From IMG/VR virus record IMGVR_UViG_3300030333_005778, positions 1 to 25,962 of that record: 25,962 nucleotides of DNA. One strand, 5' to 3'. The translations under genes and the position numbers were made by a program. Below, piece after piece: positions 855-25,962 of this stretch (position 1 is its first letter; every line of letters starts with the position of its first letter). The notes beneath the pieces were generated by a model. The model had not been told where the DNA came from. It did no database searches and saw nothing but the letters and a program-made list of their open reading frames with translations. Origin of the DNA: a virus.

Positions 855-1091
855 ATGAGAAAGAGAGCCAAGCCGGTTAACGTAGAAGTTACACCAAGAA
901 AAAATGAATCTCCTGAGAGAATGATCAAGAGGTTTATTAAAAAAGTCAAAAAGGAAGGTGTCCTTGATGAGTGGCGAGAAAAACACATGTTCTTTGAGAA
1001 GCCAACAGACAAGCGCCGCAGAAAGAAAAAAGAGCGCAACAGAGTTTTAAAAAGGCTCCAAAGAGAATACAATGCTAAATATAGAGACTAG
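855..1091 (+). CDS. rpsU: Phage-encoded small ribosomal subunit protein bS21
   Basis: The 78-residue product matches bacterial bS21 along its length: an N-terminal strand (VNVEVTPRKNESPERMIKRF), a helix ending KKEGVLDEWREK, the signature FFEKPTDKRRRKKKER, and a basic C-terminal helix. Bacterial bS21 is about 70 residues, so this is full length. bS21 binds the 30S platform near the 3' end of 16S rRNA, close to the anti-Shine-Dalgarno. Some aquatic phages are known to carry bS21 genes, which are thought to replace the host protein on ribosomes and favour phage messages. Here it lies inside the head operon, with AGGA about 8 bases before the ATG and 11 bases before the next gene, so it would be made late with the virion proteins. 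Confidence 0.9.
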   Translation: MRKRAKPVNVEVTPRKNESPERMIKRFIKKVKKEGVLDEWREKHMFFEKPTDKRRRKKKERNRVLKRLQREYNAKYRD

Positions 1092-5488: not shown

Positions 5489-7321
5489 ATGTCAGTTTTA
5501 GATAAATTAACAGAAGGCATTGTTAATCGTGACCTCCAAAAAGAAGGTGCAGCCCTACTCAACAAGTGGGAAAAAACCGGACTTTTAGAGGGTATTGACA
5601 GTGACCAGAAAAAAGACGGAATGGCTCGTTTGCTTGAAAACCAAGCAAAAGAACTACTTCGTGAAGCAGCGTCATCCATGGCAGGTGGAGATGTTGAGGG
5701 TTTTGCATCAGTTGCATTCCCAATCGTTCGCCGTGTATTCGGTAACTTGATCGCTAACGACCTTGTGAGCGTTCAACCAATGAGCCTCCCATCGGGACTC
5801 ATCTTCTTCCTTGACTTCACCTACGGAGCACCAGCTCAAAGACTTGGTAATGTTAATGGAGATTCACTTTACGGTGGTGGAGTTGTTGGGCAACAGTTGA
5901 CCGGAGGTGTTGACTTGGATGGCAGAGACAATACATATGGTCTCCTCAACCAAGAAAAAGGACCATACGGTCTCAACAATGGCTATTCTAGCCCAACAGC
6001 ATCTGCAACAATCGAACTCGAAGCTGATGGAACAAGCGACGGTATGTTCCTTGTTGCTTCTGGTACCGTTGGAGCTACAGCAGGAGAGGGAGATCACCCA
6101 CTCAGCGCAGCAAACCAAGACAAGCTTAATAAGTTGGCTCGTTACGATGCTGACCTTCAAGACAAAGCCGTTGTCATTATTGAGATCACAGGTTCTTCTC
6201 AGTTTGCTCAACTTGATGTTAACAATCTCGTTTCTCTTAACACAACAACAAAGAAGACTACTTGTGATTTAGTTAGAAGACTAACTGAAGTTGCTTCTGG
6301 TTCTGCTGGAAGTGATCCATCTGTATCTACGTTTAAGCTTAAACTTGTTTTTGCTTCTACGGCTTCCGCTGGAGCAACAGTTTCTCTTGCGGGTGTTGCT
6401 GAAAACGCAGCGCAGATGGTAAACAACATTACAGGTTCTGACACCGCTCTTGGATTCGCAATTGATGATAACTTCACTAATTCGACATTCGGAAATCCGG
6501 GCGCAGTTGTTGGTACAAGCACTTGGGAACTTGAAGATCAGGCAGAAATCCCAGAAATCGACATCAAGGTTGATTCTGTTGCGGTTACTGCTCAGACAAA
6601 GAAGCTCAAGGCTAAGTGGACTCCAGAATTGGGTCAAGACCTCAACGCTTATCATAACCTTGATGCAGAAGTTGAGCTTACAAGCATTCTCTCTGAGCAA
6701 ATTGCTCTTGAGATTGATCGTGAGATTCTTGAAGACCTTATTAAGGGTGCCACTGCTGGAACTCAATACTGGTCGCGCCGTCCGGGTAAGTTTGTAACAC
6801 GTAACTCAGGTGCTCAGGTTGGTGGAAACCAGTCGAACGAGTCCTTGATGGGTGCTGACTTCACCGGTACTGTTTCTGAATGGTATGAAACCCTTGCAGA
6901 AACCATTAACGATGTATCGGCTCAAATCCACAGAAAGACACTTCGCGGTGGTGCAAACTTCGTTGTTGTATCTCCAGAGGTTGCTAACATCCTTGAGTTC
7001 ACTGCTGGCTTCAGAGCAAGCGTAACTCACGATGCTGACCGTGGATCTATTGGAGCTGTTAACGTTGGATCCTTGAGCAAGAAGTATGACGTATACGTCG
7101 ATCCTTACTTCCCAAGAAACGTTGTTCTTGTTGGGCGTAAAGGTGGATCATTCCTCGAAAGTGGATATGTGTACGCACCATATGTACCGCTTCAGGTAAC
7201 TCCAACTATCTTCGGTGTAGAGGACTTCGTACCTCGTAAGGGTGTAATGACCCGTTACGCTAAGAAGATGGTTAGACCTGATATGTATGGTCTCGTTATC
7301 TGCCAAGATCTTAACGGATAA
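5489..7321 (+). CDS. 23: Major capsid protein, T4 gp23-like (HK97 fold)
   Basis: The protein has 610 residues and a strong AAAGGAG site. The N-terminus resembles the gp23 propeptide (LLNKWEKTGLLEG; ARLLENQAKELL), followed by VRRVFGNLIANDLVSVQPMS, the gp23 entry to the capsid fold. The C-terminal third has RGGANFVVVSPEVANILE, YDVYVDPYF and APYVPLQVTPTIFGVEDF, typical of gp23. T4 gp23 is 521 residues, so about 90 residues are inserted, mainly in the Gly/Ser/Thr-rich region around 120-300. The protein should form the hexameric shell and be trimmed by the gp21-like protease; LLEG near residue 33 and LLREAAS near residue 57 contain plausible hydrophobic-x-Glu cut sites. A strong terminator follows. 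No separate gp24-type vertex protein is seen in the window. Confidence 0.93.
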   Translation: MSVLDKLTEGIVNRDLQKEGAALLNKWEKTGLLEGIDSDQKKDGMARLLENQAKELLREAASSMAGGDVEGFASVAFPIVRRVFGNLIANDLVSVQPMSLPSGLIFFLDFTYGAPAQRLGNVNGDSLYGGGVVGQQLTGGVDLDGRDNTYGLLNQEKGPYGLNNGYSSPTASATIELEADGTSDGMFLVASGTVGATAGEGDHPLSAANQDKLNKLARYDADLQDKAVVIIEITGSSQFAQLDVNNLVSLNTTTKKTTCDLVRRLTEVASGSAGSDPSVSTFKLKLVFASTASAGATVSLAGVAENAAQMVNNITGSDTALGFAIDDNFTNSTFGNPGAVVGTSTWELEDQAEIPEIDIKVDSVAVTAQTKKLKAKWTPELGQDLNAYHNLDAEVELTSILSEQIALEIDREILEDLIKGATAGTQYWSRRPGKFVTRNSGAQVGGNQSNESLMGADFTGTVSEWYETLAETINDVSAQIHRKTLRGGANFVVVSPEVANILEFTAGFRASVTHDADRGSIGAVNVGSLSKKYDVYVDPYFPRNVVLVGRKGGSFLESGYVYAPYVPLQVTPTIFGVEDFVPRKGVMTRYAKKMVRPDMYGLVICQDLNG

Positions 7322-22300: not shown

Positions 22301-22390
22301 AAGCTTAGTGGGCAGTATTATGATGAAGGCGCACAGATGACCACTATGACGGGAGAGGAAGAATATCAAACCTCGACGGAGGAAAACTAA
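19352..22390 (+). CDS. Large baseplate hub-like structural protein
   Basis: A 1012-residue protein starting with GTG; the nearest purine-rich site is AGGGTAG at 19344. Residues 1-300 are beta-rich with aromatic strands (SAEIEMPLFLYGNRNSET, MRDQTAFGASRHVYATLSLG, NNLVLLLELEDWELDIQQDG). Residues about 385-470 are a strong coiled coil (NLEQKIRTLEQNLQSIDTKI, ENEKAEIQEQLSEENKKLGS). The C-terminal part contains HPGKHIYIRPVIAGF and LGLGGYYMVTEVSNEIGSTG followed by VTSVKAAWQ, a strand pattern typical of the end of gp27/gpD-type hub proteins, where the last domain positions a product over the tube. I see no lysozyme motif. It ends TAATG, overlapping the next gene by one base. Hub identity is an inference from the C-terminal pattern and the neighbourhood. 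Confidence 0.55.
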   Translation: MASNDKKLEDLTRNLSSKSGYIDFIEASQRLLSSNTMKFANAARFLYPLGYDRHISMDSNASDTLMSDFFSYGSSVSEFIDFGGHPILASARTPNIRLYKLIREGNRKKTVSAEIEMPLFLYGNRNSETVLNPQDRSNEAYFLGLNFDMRDQTAFGASRHVYATLSLGFNSFNALSRIYQAPGRGSEDSSSMHNFAYVDLIRRTNGASIDASAYADYSIRMEIGWNPVTPNVTELAPELQGANESGAEYNNLVLLLELEDWELDIQQDGKIKLDISYHAFVERELSNNYQYDVLNSPDMLDIGADTGSPADPTYRNLIEELKKQNQDRVFNAYKTGAYDINKPAGRLAMSLTSGQKTRFKLNDMQYDNAVTTAASELKAEYIAESSAGGQELVNNLEQKIRTLEQNLQSIDTKISAAGNTKEVESLENEKAEIQEQLSEENKKLGSIKGKVEGNTKASEEAKKGLTELLDRIDMYNKVEKYQGFLRKLSKNGKIYSIDIPKKELLLYSPQFTEDFDEAFSKDDADFLKKKKESLAAKSLANQSGVDRTESFLENLQSLDKDISKTFSDLEYAATKAAGLTYPSELSDSSEDVKKRYQKAVAIGLNKNLNRAQTLSTSTQRIHYVYFGDIIETIVGPIMFAIMQSRNLGLLMGSFIYDKKMNMITNQEVAATGTKSVMGAINFSDVPISIEMFSRFFSETIINKNVSKISFLDFMNGMVNQLIIPSLNEEFAGISNYNPVKVKTTFLRTSNPILLSPATEEASVDQKGKAENKLASGRYDLTNPDNIKKIRKLTDPNFIKQAKASQIWHYLFVYGIQENNIAGITATYEGDMKKGIYHFTYGDSSGSGTGGRTDLIKDIKFIKVKKSGQREMMVERHLKGGRSGGFLEIFNIFDIEMTMIGNNLLHPGKHIYIRPVIAGFSRLTEERSIIQQLGLGGYYMVTEVSNEIGSTGEWVTSVKAAWQSNGGGNIIRPGGKTISQSEADKLSGQYYDEGAQMTTMTGEEEYQTSTEEN

Positions 22391-23874
22391 TGGCTAGGTA
22401 TAAGATATACAACCAACAAGTTTATATAACTAACAACACCCCGACGAAAACTATATTCGATCAGAGGCAGAAGTTTGAGAGATTGTATCCGAAGGGGTTT
22501 GGGTTTCCTGAGCCAATCGACTTTTGGCAAGAAAAAAATAGAATGTATGGCTTTATGGATCAAAATAAAAATTTGATCCATCCCGATCCTGCCTTTATAA
22601 AACAATTAAAGGGTAGCAATAATGGAAATCTATTCGCCTTCGATTTTGTGTGCGATGCGTTTAATGGTATGCAGCACTACTTCAATGGTAAAAATACCCA
22701 AAAAATGATAGAAGACGGAGAGAGGGTTAAAAAACCCCTAAAAGCACACAAAGCTTGGGATGACCCCCTAGAGATCAGAAAGTCTCTAGATCATTCTATT
22801 TATAGAAGCTTTGTAAGAATATTCTTAAAGGGACAAAACAAACACAAGCTCATAACAAATCTGGAAGATTTCATTGAAGTGTTTTTTAATCTTTGTATGA
22901 AAGACATCATACCAGATACCCCCCTAACACTTTCAGGCTTAATGCTAACTAACCTTATTTCTCCGATGTCCAACGGGCTTTGCATTGAGGTTTCTTTGGA
23001 TGATCACTCCAATGTTCATAAATTTTATGACACTTACTACAACAACAAAAATTATAAAACCTATTTAATGATCGCCGCAAAGTACGGCTTTATGGTTGAT
23101 AAAAATGTTCCTTTTAGGTTGGTAGCGAACTTGGGCTCTCCAAAGATGTTGAACTTTATGAGGGCTCGTATGGAAGATTATTTGTCCATCCCTCGAACTG
23201 GACAAACAAACTTTTCTGTGAAAGATTTTGTAGTGAAGCCCGGAGACACACCGTTGGACCGACACACCCACGAATACGAACTAGATGAAGATGGCAACGG
23301 AGAAACAAGCATTTACACCGATTCTTACGGCACCCAGCACAAACATCAGGTAACAAACTTTATAATCACTGAGAATCAGGGTTGGAAAAAGATGCCGAGC
23401 TATCCATATCCTGTTGGGATTGGATACCACAATCACACAGAAAACTACAAAAAAGAACCTTTCCCAAAATCACAAAATCCAGTTGACCTATCTCTAGATA
23501 AATATTTTGAAAGATATTATATTTCTAACACATTGAAAGATATAGCACTTTTGCGATCTAAAGTGCTGGGTATGTACAATAAATATGTGAATGAATTTCC
23601 TAATTCTTCTTATTCGGTGCCTTGTGGACCAATAAGGAGCCAAAAGGTCACAGTAAATAGGATTAACATAAGCTATCAAAATATGTTAAAGGAAGGCTTT
23701 AACACTTTGTTCTATACAAAATTGTATTTTCTTGTGAGACTTAAAGAATTGAAAGCAGACGTAACCGATGAGTCCATAAAAGTGAATATAAAAAAAATAG
23801 ATACTTTGTGGAAACTAGTTGACAAATATGAAGCTATCCGGTATATTGATGTTTACTTAAAGCAATTTTATTAG
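22390..23874 (+). CDS. Probable virion protein with three HxH motifs
   Basis: The start ATG overlaps the previous TAA by one base, so translation is coupled. The 494-residue product has no family I recognise. Residues 1-280 are mixed alpha/beta and aromatic. Residues 289-350 hold a His-rich insert with HTH (292-294), HKH (317-319) and HNH (347-349), separated by DGNG and PYPVGIGY turns. Residues 375-494 are helical (NTLKDIALLRSKVLGMYNKY; VNIKKIDTLWKLVDKYEAIR). HxH groups bind iron in some phage fibres and spikes, so a metal-stabilised domain is possible. No signal peptide or transmembrane segment. Position after the hub-like gene suggests a baseplate or tail component. Confidence 0.6.
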   Translation: MARYKIYNQQVYITNNTPTKTIFDQRQKFERLYPKGFGFPEPIDFWQEKNRMYGFMDQNKNLIHPDPAFIKQLKGSNNGNLFAFDFVCDAFNGMQHYFNGKNTQKMIEDGERVKKPLKAHKAWDDPLEIRKSLDHSIYRSFVRIFLKGQNKHKLITNLEDFIEVFFNLCMKDIIPDTPLTLSGLMLTNLISPMSNGLCIEVSLDDHSNVHKFYDTYYNNKNYKTYLMIAAKYGFMVDKNVPFRLVANLGSPKMLNFMRARMEDYLSIPRTGQTNFSVKDFVVKPGDTPLDRHTHEYELDEDGNGETSIYTDSYGTQHKHQVTNFIITENQGWKKMPSYPYPVGIGYHNHTENYKKEPFPKSQNPVDLSLDKYFERYYISNTLKDIALLRSKVLGMYNKYVNEFPNSSYSVPCGPIRSQKVTVNRINISYQNMLKEGFNTLFYTKLYFLVRLKELKADVTDESIKVNIKKIDTLWKLVDKYEAIRYIDVYLKQFY

Positions 23875-23884
23875 AAGGTCAGCA

Positions 23885-25072
23885 TTGTTATTCCAAGCTC
23901 TAGATGAAAAAGAAAAATGCATCGGAATATGCATCAACGGACAAATTCACAAAAACCTACCAGAAGATATAAGTCGAACTTGGAAATATTCCACATTTCT
24001 TAAAAATTATAATGTTGAATACGCAAATATCCTTTGCGAAGGCAAGTCCTTGGGAGAAGTCTGCCCTGATGAACTTAAGGGTGATTACGACCGTATCTGG
24101 TCAAAACTTAAGGCATTTTACAAATCTTTTGCTATAGCAAAGATCTCAATGCAGGATCATTGTTTTTTCGATCTTGTACCCGAGGGCTTTTTAAAAGAAT
24201 TTTGTATGCTTAAAGATAAAATCACTCAACATGTTTTTGATAAATATGAGCGCCCCTCCAATTATACCAATATGGTGGAGATCACAAAACTAGTCACAGA
24301 AATTAAACACCAAAAGTTAAACATAGACTTATCAGTCCTCAACAATGATCTCGCTGATCATCGAACCAAAGAGTTTTATAAGAAAATTCATAGAATAGAG
24401 CCCTATATCAAATACAACCCCTTCGGAACAAAGACGGGAAGATTGACTACCAATAAGAATTCATTCCCAATATTGACAATGGATAAGAAATTTAGAAAGG
24501 TTATCAAGCCAACCAACGATTGGTTTGTTGAGTTTGATTATAACGCAGCAGAACTGAGGGTTCTCTTAGGGTTGCTCGGAGAAAAACAGCCCCCAATAGA
24601 CTTACACCAATACAATTCTCTTGAACTATTTGGTGGAAATATAAGCAGAGACGAAGCCAAGAAGCGTATTTTTTCTTGGCTATACAATCCAAATGCCAAA
24701 GACGAAACTCTCTCTAAGCTTTATGATAGGGAAGCTATAAAAAAAGAATATTGGGATGGTACATCGGTAAAGACTACATATCACCGAAATATTTTATCGG
24801 ACGAGTATCATGCTCTCAACTACATAATTCAAAGCACTTGCAGCGATTTGATTCTTGATAAAGCTATCATAATATCGGAGATGCTTGCGGGAAAGAAAAC
24901 AAAAATTGCATTTGTAATTCACGATAGTATTGTGCTAGACTATGCCAATGAGGATGGCACGTTTGTCAACGATGTATATTGGGAATTTATGGATACGCCG
25001 TTTGGAAGATTTAAAACTAACGTTGCTGGTGGAAGAAACTTTGGGGAAATGAAGGACTTATGGATATATTAA
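23885..25072 (+). CDS. Family A DNA polymerase catalytic domain without exonuclease
   Basis: A 395-residue protein starting at TTG, with AAGG 6 bases before; the first in-frame ATG is near residue 89 and would remove much of the N-terminal region. Family A residues, E. coli Pol I equivalents in brackets: TGRLTTN with Arg186 (R668), motif A DYNAAELR with Asp218 and Glu223 (D705, E710), motif B R255-x3-K259-x3-F263-x3-Y267 (R754/K758/F762/Y766), N312-x3-Q316 (N845/Q849), motif C IHDS with Asp347 (D882). The Glu after the motif C Asp is Ser. Motif A to C spans 129 residues, against 177 in Pol I, so fingers/palm insertions are reduced. I see no 3'-5' or 5'-3' exonuclease motifs. It lies in the same run as baseplate genes and overlaps the next gene by 13 bases. 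Confidence 0.85.
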   Translation: MLFQALDEKEKCIGICINGQIHKNLPEDISRTWKYSTFLKNYNVEYANILCEGKSLGEVCPDELKGDYDRIWSKLKAFYKSFAIAKISMQDHCFFDLVPEGFLKEFCMLKDKITQHVFDKYERPSNYTNMVEITKLVTEIKHQKLNIDLSVLNNDLADHRTKEFYKKIHRIEPYIKYNPFGTKTGRLTTNKNSFPILTMDKKFRKVIKPTNDWFVEFDYNAAELRVLLGLLGEKQPPIDLHQYNSLELFGGNISRDEAKKRIFSWLYNPNAKDETLSKLYDREAIKKEYWDGTSVKTTYHRNILSDEYHALNYIIQSTCSDLILDKAIIISEMLAGKKTKIAFVIHDSIVLDYANEDGTFVNDVYWEFMDTPFGRFKTNVAGGRNFGEMKDLWIY

Positions 25073-25899
25073 TAGGGCTTGGCTCTGTTGGACACAAGCT
25101 AGCAAAAGCGTTTACAAAGCATCCGCAGTACAGGGTAATTACAATAGATCACGAGGAGGGCTCAACTATACGCATTCCGAAGCAAGATCATCCCGAAAAG
25201 TACGAAGAAAATTTTCCAGACATTAGTGCTTCGCTGAAAGATATTAGTGGCGACGTTTTGTTTGTTGTTTCTGGGGCAAGCATTATTTCTGGCGCATCAT
25301 TGTGTATTCTAGAAAAAATACATAATTTCTGCGATATCAGCATTTTGTATATACACCCGGACGTTGAAACGCTTTCAGAAACCAGACGTTTGCAAGCAAA
25401 TTTGGTCTTCGGAGCACTCCAGCATTATGCAAGATCTGGTGTTTTCAAGCAGTTTTATGCGATTGATAATCAGCAGGTGGACAAAATCTTAGGGGGAGCG
25501 CCAATAATGGGATATTACGATAGTTTAAACGAGGTTATTGTCGCAACCATCCATATGATAAATGTGTTTAGCCACACCGAGCCAGTGGTGGGAACCCTAT
25601 CCGACCCAAAGGAAACCTGCCGCATTTCAACTTTCGGCATATTAAATCCAGAAACAGGCGAAGAGAGCCCGTTTTTTTCTCTTGACAATGTAAAAGAAAA
25701 GCGCTATTATTACGCCATTCCTGAAACGGAATTAAAAACTGATAAGACTTTGATGAACAAGATTATGTCACAGGTAAAAGATACGCCACAAGAAAAAGAT
25801 ACAAAAGTATCTTATGGTGTTTTTTCTACACAATACTCAGACAAATATGCTTATTTCATTTCGAGCACATCAGAAATACAAAATGAAAAAAGTTCTTGA
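25060..25899 (+). CDS. Putative FtsZ/tubulin-like protein, nucleotide loop degenerate
   Basis: A 279-residue protein overlapping the polymerase end by 13 bases. Its layout parallels FtsZ/tubulin: a first strand and loop IGLGSVGH (about 5-12, loop T1); GDVLFVVSGASIISGASLCI (about 64-83), placed like FtsZ DMVFIAAGMGGGTGTGAA (T4); a strand with Pro in YIHPDVE (T5) then ETRRLQANLVFGALQHYA; YAIDNQQV with Asn137 (T6 Asn); then NVFSHTEPVVGTLSDPKET (T7 region, Asp182). The end, VSYGVFSTQYSDKYAYFISS, resembles the second FtsZ domain. T4-T6-T7 spacing is close to FtsZ. The GGGTG(S/T)G loop is lost, so GTP binding is doubtful. An ordinary Rossmann NAD-binding protein (GxGxxG at 6-11) is the main alternative. 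Confidence 0.4.
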   Translation: MDILIGLGSVGHKLAKAFTKHPQYRVITIDHEEGSTIRIPKQDHPEKYEENFPDISASLKDISGDVLFVVSGASIISGASLCILEKIHNFCDISILYIHPDVETLSETRRLQANLVFGALQHYARSGVFKQFYAIDNQQVDKILGGAPIMGYYDSLNEVIVATIHMINVFSHTEPVVGTLSDPKETCRISTFGILNPETGEESPFFSLDNVKEKRYYYAIPETELKTDKTLMNKIMSQVKDTPQEKDTKVSYGVFSTQYSDKYAYFISSTSEIQNEKSS

Positions 25900-25924
25900 C
25901 TTTTATTTTTAGATAACTTATAGT
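25896..25924 (+). promoter_or_regulatory. Sigma70-like promoter for the next gene
   Basis: TTGACT (25896-25901), a 17-base spacer and TATAGT (25919-25924) differ from consensus at one base each. The -35 overlaps the stop codon of the tubulin-like gene. The start would be near 25931, 22 bases before the ATG at 25953. It probably marks a change from virion genes to a host-polymerase-driven gene. Confidence 0.75.
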
Positions 25925-25952: not shown

Positions 25953-25962
25953 ATGGGTATCA
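25953..25962 (+). CDS. Start of a gene cut by the window edge
   Basis: ATGGGTATC follows AAGGAG (25942-25947) by 5 bases and a good sigma70-like promoter. Only three codons (Met-Gly-Ile) are visible, so nothing can be said about its product. Confidence 0.6.

Follow-up and report, generated by a model that had tools for sequence, protein, structure and literature searches.

The compact gene and its family

The window analyzed here is the whole 25,962-nucleotide (nt) stretch of IMG/VR virus record IMGVR_UViG_3300030333_005778. Near its 3′ end, on the plus strand, a gene at 25060..25899 (ATG at 25060, stop codon ending at 25899) encodes a compact protein of 279 amino acids (aa), P0001, that almost certainly, judging from its predicted model, has the complete two-domain tubulin/FtsZ fold, the domains being joined by helix H7. 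The start of this gene overlaps by 13 nt the end of the upstream gene, which encodes a compact family A DNA polymerase (PolA, 395 aa; 23885..25072, plus strand; PF00476, 1.7e-13; phrog_17, 6.1e-15). Downstream lies a gene that by synteny encodes a gp32-like single-stranded DNA-binding protein (SSB); the window ends 10 nt into it and holds its first codons (25953..25962, plus strand; ATG GGT ATC).

The P0001 open reading frame (ORF) is a real gene under purifying selection, since the ratio of nonsynonymous to synonymous divergence (dN/dS) is low, at 0.046-0.095 for seven of the eight close relatives compared; these values are rough, with dS above 1 in six of the seven comparisons, and the eighth relative (L016) is saturated at synonymous sites. 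It also belongs to a large family. A single-protein search of IMG/VR with P0001 gave 114 matched stretches, 112 of which were confirmed as relatives, and an alignment search confirmed at least 596 (596 of 600 matched stretches). The best 80 from each search make up 159 loci, some on the same contigs, and the complete ORFs recovered from 153 of them are 272-299 aa long (median, 280). The working alignment, A2 (n=73), consists of 72 representatives at <82% pairwise identity plus the window protein, to which its members are 41-87% identical. No match to the window protein or to one divergent member was found by tblastn in 50,697 phage records, and none of the 62 stretches matched in GTDB contigs, where one pattern only was used, was a compact relative. 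The carriers are a large and apparently uncultured group of tailed bacterial viruses.

Predicted fold and sequence kinship

The AlphaFold2 model of P0001, built on A2, has a mean pLDDT of 94.0 and a pTM of 0.92. Its elements run S1-H1-S2-short helix-S4-H4-S5-H5-S6-H6-H7-S7-short strand-S8-H10-S9-S10, names that are our own labels placed on the DSSP output, and they make up an N-terminal nucleotide domain, helix H7 and a C-terminal activation domain in one chain. Foldseek returned 694 matches in the PDB at E<=0.001, the first being Staphylococcus aureus FtsZ (E 4.5e-12); by their titles, the best 50 of the 694 are all FtsZ, TubZ or tubulin-family chains. VIA-align agreed, with CetZ 3zid_B at Z 24.2 (256 residues, 2.9 Å), CetZ2 at 23.7, TubZ 2xka_C at 22.9 (274 residues, 3.0 Å), Aquifex aeolicus FtsZ 2r6r at 22.2 and tubulin at about 21.5. 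Across its best 50 rows, Z ranged from 21.0 to 24.2, 256-276 residues were aligned and the model was spanned from residue 1 to residues 271-279, at 11-17% identity in the alignments listed. For models without a clear match the best Z is typically 7-8; therefore, the likeness is not a generic Rossmann-like one. Among predicted viral structures (BFVD), the best match was A0A6J5RW92 (E 2.2e-11, TMq 0.76), and PhuZ of phage Noxifer also matched (E 8.9e-6). PhuZ structures were not among the best 50 VIA rows; 285 of the top 1000 Foldseek chains had been left unaligned, and this is not counted against kinship.

These results bear out the sequence-only reading of this DNA, which had proposed a compact FtsZ/tubulin-like protein with a second domain. 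The second domain is confirmed by the predicted model, a structure search over both domains is headed by FtsZ, TubZ, CetZ and tubulin, and no Rossmann dehydrogenase came up as the best full-length match.

From sequence alone, we would have leaned toward a Rossmann enzyme. TrkA_N, a Rossmann family, matches 16 of the 73 members of A2 (best, 8.8e-6), whereas the Pfam Tubulin model (PF00091) is joint second among the families matched, with Sacchrp_dh_NADP: each matches nine members, at best with 0.0043 and 0.0095, respectively. PF00091 has no match to the window protein at E<=1, and in the 11 compact-bearing records searched it matches weakly at the compact gene in four (12.3-12.9 bits against a cut-off of 33). 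Neither Pfam, NCBIfam nor PHROGs recognizes the window protein as belonging to a tubulin-type family; NCBIfam gave no such family for five compact proteins, only weak matches to unrelated models for two, and PHROGs matches of compact members are weak and scattered over 69 families. PDB sequence searches with P0001 and with alignment A1 likewise returned no member of the tubulin superfamily. A protein of the Rossmann NAD(P)-binding kind, similar to TrkA_N or to a dehydrogenase, would account for the Pfam matches and for a GxGxxG motif followed by Asp30, but on the window protein these Pfam matches span residues 3-33 and 3-79 only, and the whole-chain matches, H7 and the second domain included, are to FtsZ and tubulin. 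We consider this explanation highly improbable. The Rossmann enzyme suggested by TrkA_N was rejected on the whole-chain fold, with the best 50 rows of both Foldseek and VIA all, by their titles, in the FtsZ/tubulin superfamily.

Profile comparison gives suggestive evidence of homology to FtsZ that falls short of proof. The alignment A2 scored 25.7 (E 0.013) by hhalign against 27 cellular FtsZ sequences; the controls reached at most 24.5 (59 column-permuted alignments) and 13.5 (reversed). The register places T4 on T4, Asn137 on the T6 Asn and Asn157 on the Asp of the "AD" motif of H7. The same alignment puts MINVF on the FtsZ T7 loop, whereas in the model MINVF is in H7, and the alignment is not trusted past H7.

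Nucleotide-site loops and a second FtsZ-like family

Much of the base-binding side of the nucleotide site is kept. The T1-like loop (aa 5-12, IGLGSVGH; 25072..25095, plus strand) retains its glycines almost throughout (G6, 72/73; G8, 73/73; G11, 72/73), and in the model strand 3-7 leads there into helix 8-20. Asn137, in S6/T6 (aa 131-138; 25450..25473, plus strand), is invariant (73/73) and was aligned to the T6 Asn of FtsZ by hhalign without use of structure; Asn157 is equally invariant in the connecting helix H7 (aa 152-171 in the model; 25513..25572, plus strand). Elsewhere, D30 at the end of S2 is found in 72 members and P100 in T5 in 62, and Q121, Y123, R125, S126 and Y259 are each present in all 73. 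Contacts to guanine by the T6 Asn and by an Asn or Asp in H7 are established for FtsZ and tubulin. By homology, then, Asn137 and Asn157 would be the guanine contacts of the compact protein.

The hydrolytic side differs. The phosphate loop T4 is degenerate (aa 70-80; 25267..25299, plus strand), with GGGTG in none of the 73 members. The T7 region (aa 172-188; 25573..25623, plus strand), as judged from the model and the columns of A2, has neither helix H8 nor an acid that is invariant: the model is helix-free between 171 and 189, where H8 would be expected, and position 182 is Asp in 13 members and Glu in 19, i.e., acidic in 32/73. Mean column identity in the T7 region is 0.49, compared with 0.57 for the whole protein. 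Thus, most of the loops proposed beforehand are where they had been placed (T1 at 5-12, a strand-to-loop element at 64-72, a T5 Pro and the T6 Asn137), whereas the T7-like Asp182 is not conserved; the missing GGGTG supports the suggestion that it could be a relative without GTPase activity. Taken together, the invariant Asn pair, the absence of GGGTG, a T7 region in which no acid is invariant and a model lacking H8 point to a protein that probably binds nucleotide without hydrolyzing it and has a weakened bottom face. Since the T4 signature and the T7 acids with H8 are lacking, the family is filed under the tubulin/FtsZ fold superfamily, outside the FtsZ/tubulin GTPase family.

In the protofilaments characterized so far, each subunit presents the nucleotide of its top face to the T7 side of its neighbor. 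In phiKZ TubZ, FtsZ and tubulin, that interface is formed by T7, S9 and the base of H8, according to PMC3678025. One can nonetheless envision the compact protein as a true filament former, a reduced PhuZ/TubZ-like protein that homopolymerizes and needs no partner to position or segregate phage DNA. Such a role would suit the complete two-domain fold, with 274-275 residues aligned to TubZ chains 2xka_C and 4ei7_A; moreover, all superfamily members characterized up to 2010 form filaments, according to the authors of PMC2875224, and phage tubulins that center the phage nucleus are described in PMC13282480. However, H8, the invariant T7 acid and GGGTG are all missing, and the last strand of the model ends at residue 270 of 279. 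The remaining nine or so residues are too few for the C-terminal helix, with its acidic knuckle, that PMC3678025 describes for Pseudomonas phage TubZ/PhuZ. We regard an autonomous filament former as unlikely, if still a serious alternative.

Some of these viruses encode a second FtsZ-like protein in which the motifs are complete. Its reference member, P0004 (364 aa; L161:1027-2121, minus strand, in the 165,872-bp record G003), has T1 GVGGGGGK, T4 GGGGGTGS and a T7-like DSKD. Relatives were confirmed for 107 of 126 matched stretches in IMG/VR, of which 80 loci were kept, in records of up to 281 kb; tblastn found no match in the 50,697 phage records. By sequence, this family matches FtsZ/CetZ at 2.6e-10 with the family profile in the PDB and FtsZ at 6.3e-11 by hhalign, and its model matches CetZ2 (Z 32.4). 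Four T1 glycines, GGGTG, the T6 Asn, the H7 Asn and the T7 Asp pair (D249 and D252) are invariant in 37/37 members, and identity over T7 and H8 is 0.82, compared with 0.74 over the whole protein, the reverse of what is seen in the compact family. Homology between the two families was not established by sequence alone: hhalign scored 21.8 (E 0.051), a value exceeded by 1 of 59 permuted alignments (23.2) and by the reversed one (22.9).

The two genes occur together in seven records (G003, G033, G034, G035, G038, G044 and G046); G034 and G044, and likewise G033 and G046, look closely related, leaving about five independent co-occurrences. When compact-bearing records were searched with P0004, the second gene was found in 1 of 29, and profile A3 found the same one among 16 of these. 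Conversely, A2 detected a compact gene in 6 of the 28 P0004-bearing records, which come from the 80 loci fetched. None of the records in these counts is marked complete, so a gene that went unfound may still exist in them, and the window record itself, at only 26 kb, is too short to tell.

Records in which no second phage tubulin was detected would fit another possibility, that the compact protein acts early to block cell division in the host, poisoning host FtsZ by offering its top face to the T7 end. The kept T1 loop and top-face Asn pair, together with the degenerate T7 region, speak for this. Phage division inhibitors tend, however, to be small and variable, whereas the members of A2 share 41-87% identity with the window protein and the family is locked into a replication operon, and we consider this role improbable.

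Replication setting and possible roles

Association with the polymerase gene, noticed in the window by the sequence-only reading, is conserved across the family. A PolA homologue lies upstream in 62 of the 63 loci (of the 72 representatives) with at least 600 nt upstream, and the single miss, L149, has only 750 nt there. PolA overlaps the start of the compact gene in 38 of the 62 and lies within 50 nt in 48, a count that takes in those 38; in the other 14 the distance is 284-2623 nt. Downstream, judged over the first six ORFs of the 46 loci with at least 3 kb, SSB and a UvsX-like recombinase are each present in 45, SSB directly following the compact gene in 40. A 5′-3′ exonuclease occurs in 27 of these loci, and a dCMP-deaminase-like gene and a DnaB-like helicase are seen in 16 and 8, respectively. 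These identities come from PHROGs for one member each, and from Pfam as well for the recombinase, exonuclease and helicase; the SSB of L099 matches phrog_1192 at 1.2e-24 and has no Pfam match at E<=0.01. Upstream in the window lie T4-type genes for a head maturation protease, the major head protein, head-tail connectors, tail sheath, tail tube and baseplate. The compact gene therefore sits within the replication module, where that module borders the structural genes; the "myovirus structural region" to which it had been assigned is real as regards T4-like genes upstream, but the gene itself belongs to the module that follows them.

Such a setting might instead mean that the compact protein is a replication accessory on a tubulin scaffold, a noncytoskeletal nucleotide-sensing or processivity partner of PolA or SSB. 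Overlap with PolA in 38/62 loci and SSB downstream in 45/46 are what would be expected of such a partner. So is the content of the same slot in sister phages, where genes of a similar kind are found: an RNase_T exonuclease in G037 (L267, 5295-6131; PF00929, 3e-17) and an HD protein in G031 (L264, 1400-1975, minus strand; PF01966, 1.6e-4). These are among seven sister records (G030, G031, G032, G036, G037, G039 and G042) with the second FtsZ-like gene and no compact gene found, in which a PolA-sized gene and SSB are retained with other genes between them; in the near-identical G030 and G039 the polymerase was unmatched by BLAST and was assigned by position. The PolA-SSB interval thus appears as a variable slot for replication-linked genes. 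In Flavobacterium phage immuto, the order is PolA, two small ORFs, SSB, recombinase, exonuclease and helicase. In the sister phages and in the Flavobacterium phage, PolA and SSB are retained although the compact protein is missing; this counts against an accessory role, as does the lack of any sign of contact with PolA, and we think it an unlikely, though worthwhile, alternative.

The account we favor, tentatively and at a little less than an even chance, is that the compact protein is a single-ended tubulin adaptor or cap through which a filament of tubulin or FtsZ is linked to the replication complex. We imagine that it would bind guanine nucleotide through its top face without hydrolysis and, without a normal T7/H8 face, would build no ordinary homopolymers. 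Its top face would dock on the T7/H8 end of a genuine filament-forming subunit, making it a cap, a nucleator or a tether. It might dock but not extend a filament because the base-recognition residues are kept while the T4 signature, the invariant T7 acids and H8 are lost. The partner could be the second FtsZ-like protein where the phage has one and host FtsZ where it does not. Because the compact gene is coupled to PolA and has SSB downstream, the putative cargo is the replication complex; translational coupling to PolA would link anchoring to that complex, and the outcome would be replicating phage DNA positioned or concentrated in the cell. Computation shows the fold, the loss of loops, the conservation and the gene order, whereas nucleotide binding, the lack of hydrolysis, capping, the partner and the positioning role are all steps that we infer. 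A stricter version, in which the two proteins form an asymmetric two-tubulin system, with the P0004-family GTPase building the filament and a PolA-linked compact pseudo-tubulin capping it or anchoring it to the replication complex, seems to us rather doubtful.

Several observations weigh against the adaptor. Its capping step leans on loop loss seen in a predicted model. Position 185 in the T7 region is Glu or Asp in 53/73 members, so that weak hydrolysis may occur, and conservation is high in places within the C-terminal domain (0.71 in S8), so this domain is not simply drifting. The GxGxxG motif with Asp30 would also suit NAD, as would the matches to TrkA_N. The partner is inconstant: a second tubulin is present in one of the three records over 150 kb found via the compact gene (G001, G002 and G003). 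Of the 10 such records found via the second gene, five have a compact gene (G003 being in both counts); four of the five large two-gene records were found via the second gene, and so those four are no measure of co-occurrence. Finally, PolA is present in the sister phages, in which no compact gene was found, and so does not depend on the compact protein.

Comparison with known systems sets the compact protein apart from each of them. It shares with CetZ and FtsZ the two-domain fold with H7, the T1 glycines and the guanine-contact positions of T6 and H7, but at 279 aa it is without GGGTG in T4, the conserved T7 acids and H8. TubZ, of plasmids and Clostridium botulinum phage c-st, is a hydrolyzing filament former whose gene adjoins that of a DNA-binding adaptor. 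It has the same fold and is also carried by mobile elements; in contrast, the compact gene is flanked by PolA and SSB, and no search was aimed at TubR or centromere repeats. PhuZ, of the nucleus-forming jumbo phages (Chimalliviridae), is likewise a phage-encoded tubulin fold, whereas the carrier here is T4-like (T4-type capsid, sheath and baseplate) and its protein has no room for the C-terminal knuckle. A BLAST search of 12 records with phiKZ gp54 (45648-47528 of AF399011), which we take to be chimallin, found it in none, but was run without a positive control and is uninformative. FtsZl1 of Makarova and Koonin is also a strongly diverged branch in which filament-interface elements were not found; according to PMC2875224, its T6-H7 region is not confidently identifiable, its C-terminal part is unlike that of tubulins and it is cellular and membrane linked, whereas the compact family keeps the Asn pair and the tubulin C-terminal domain and is tied to phage replication. 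The best viral structural match, A0A6J5RW92 ("FtsZ Cell division GTPase" of an uncultured Caudovirales phage), is 452 aa long and 15% identical, and it matches the motif-complete P0004 family far better (E 3.7e-23).

Listings of the open-licence literature turned up neither the compact family nor any tubulin-fold protein encoded between PolA and SSB. Reviews and surveys (PMC13282480, PMC10299810, PMC7824862 and PMC11835377) associate phage tubulins (PhuZ and TubZ) chiefly with jumbo phages or those that form a nucleus, and report a few in other phages. Here, a large and uniform family in T4-like phages is linked to replication and not to a known phage nucleus, and its placement between PolA and SSB gives a hint that a protein of tubulin fold has been recruited for replicating viral DNA. 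Having base-recognition residues but not the hydrolysis motifs, the family could show whether a tubulin fold is able to function when no polymer is driven by hydrolysis. The motif-complete FtsZ-like protein, encoded with it in seven records, is an immediate candidate partner; a two-tubulin system, if true, would be a viral counterpart, outside nucleus-forming phages, of splitting tubulin work between unlike subunits.

Several smaller features of the locus complete the picture. Immediately upstream of PolA, a conserved 494-aa protein with no function assigned (22390..23874, plus strand; weak PHROGs match, 0.026; no Pfam match at E<=1) has an upstream homologue in 48 of the 50 loci with enough flank; it sits where the tail and replication modules meet. 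Sigma-70-like hexamers, TTGACT-17-TATAGT (25896..25924, plus strand; 10/12 matches), precede the SSB gene, but the scan gave 20 sites against 12.3 expected and they are not used as evidence. A ribosomal protein S21 homologue lies among the head genes (window 855-1088; PF01165, 1.9e-14), and in L099 an FKBP-type peptidyl-prolyl isomerase is encoded between the SSB and UvsX-like genes (5795-6307; PF00254, 4.5e-25), its cluster being present in 4/46 loci.

PolA matches only Mycobacterium phage polymerases (152 records, about 29% identity over 55%), and the SSB search matched 10 records. Among the matches listed, the nearest isolate capsids are those of Flavobacterium phage immuto, Microcystis phage Mel-JY01 and Rhodothermus phage RM378; PF00091 was found in none of these three phages, and 11 proteins from around PolA and SSB of immuto and Mel-JY01 had no match to A2 or A3. 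Two contigs (L274 and L275) of the Flavobacteriales metagenome-assembled genome SZUA-1004 encode the second FtsZ-like family, although viral contigs can be misbinned. Together with the Flavobacterium phage, by its capsid a close cultured relative, they give a weak hint of Bacteroidota hosts.

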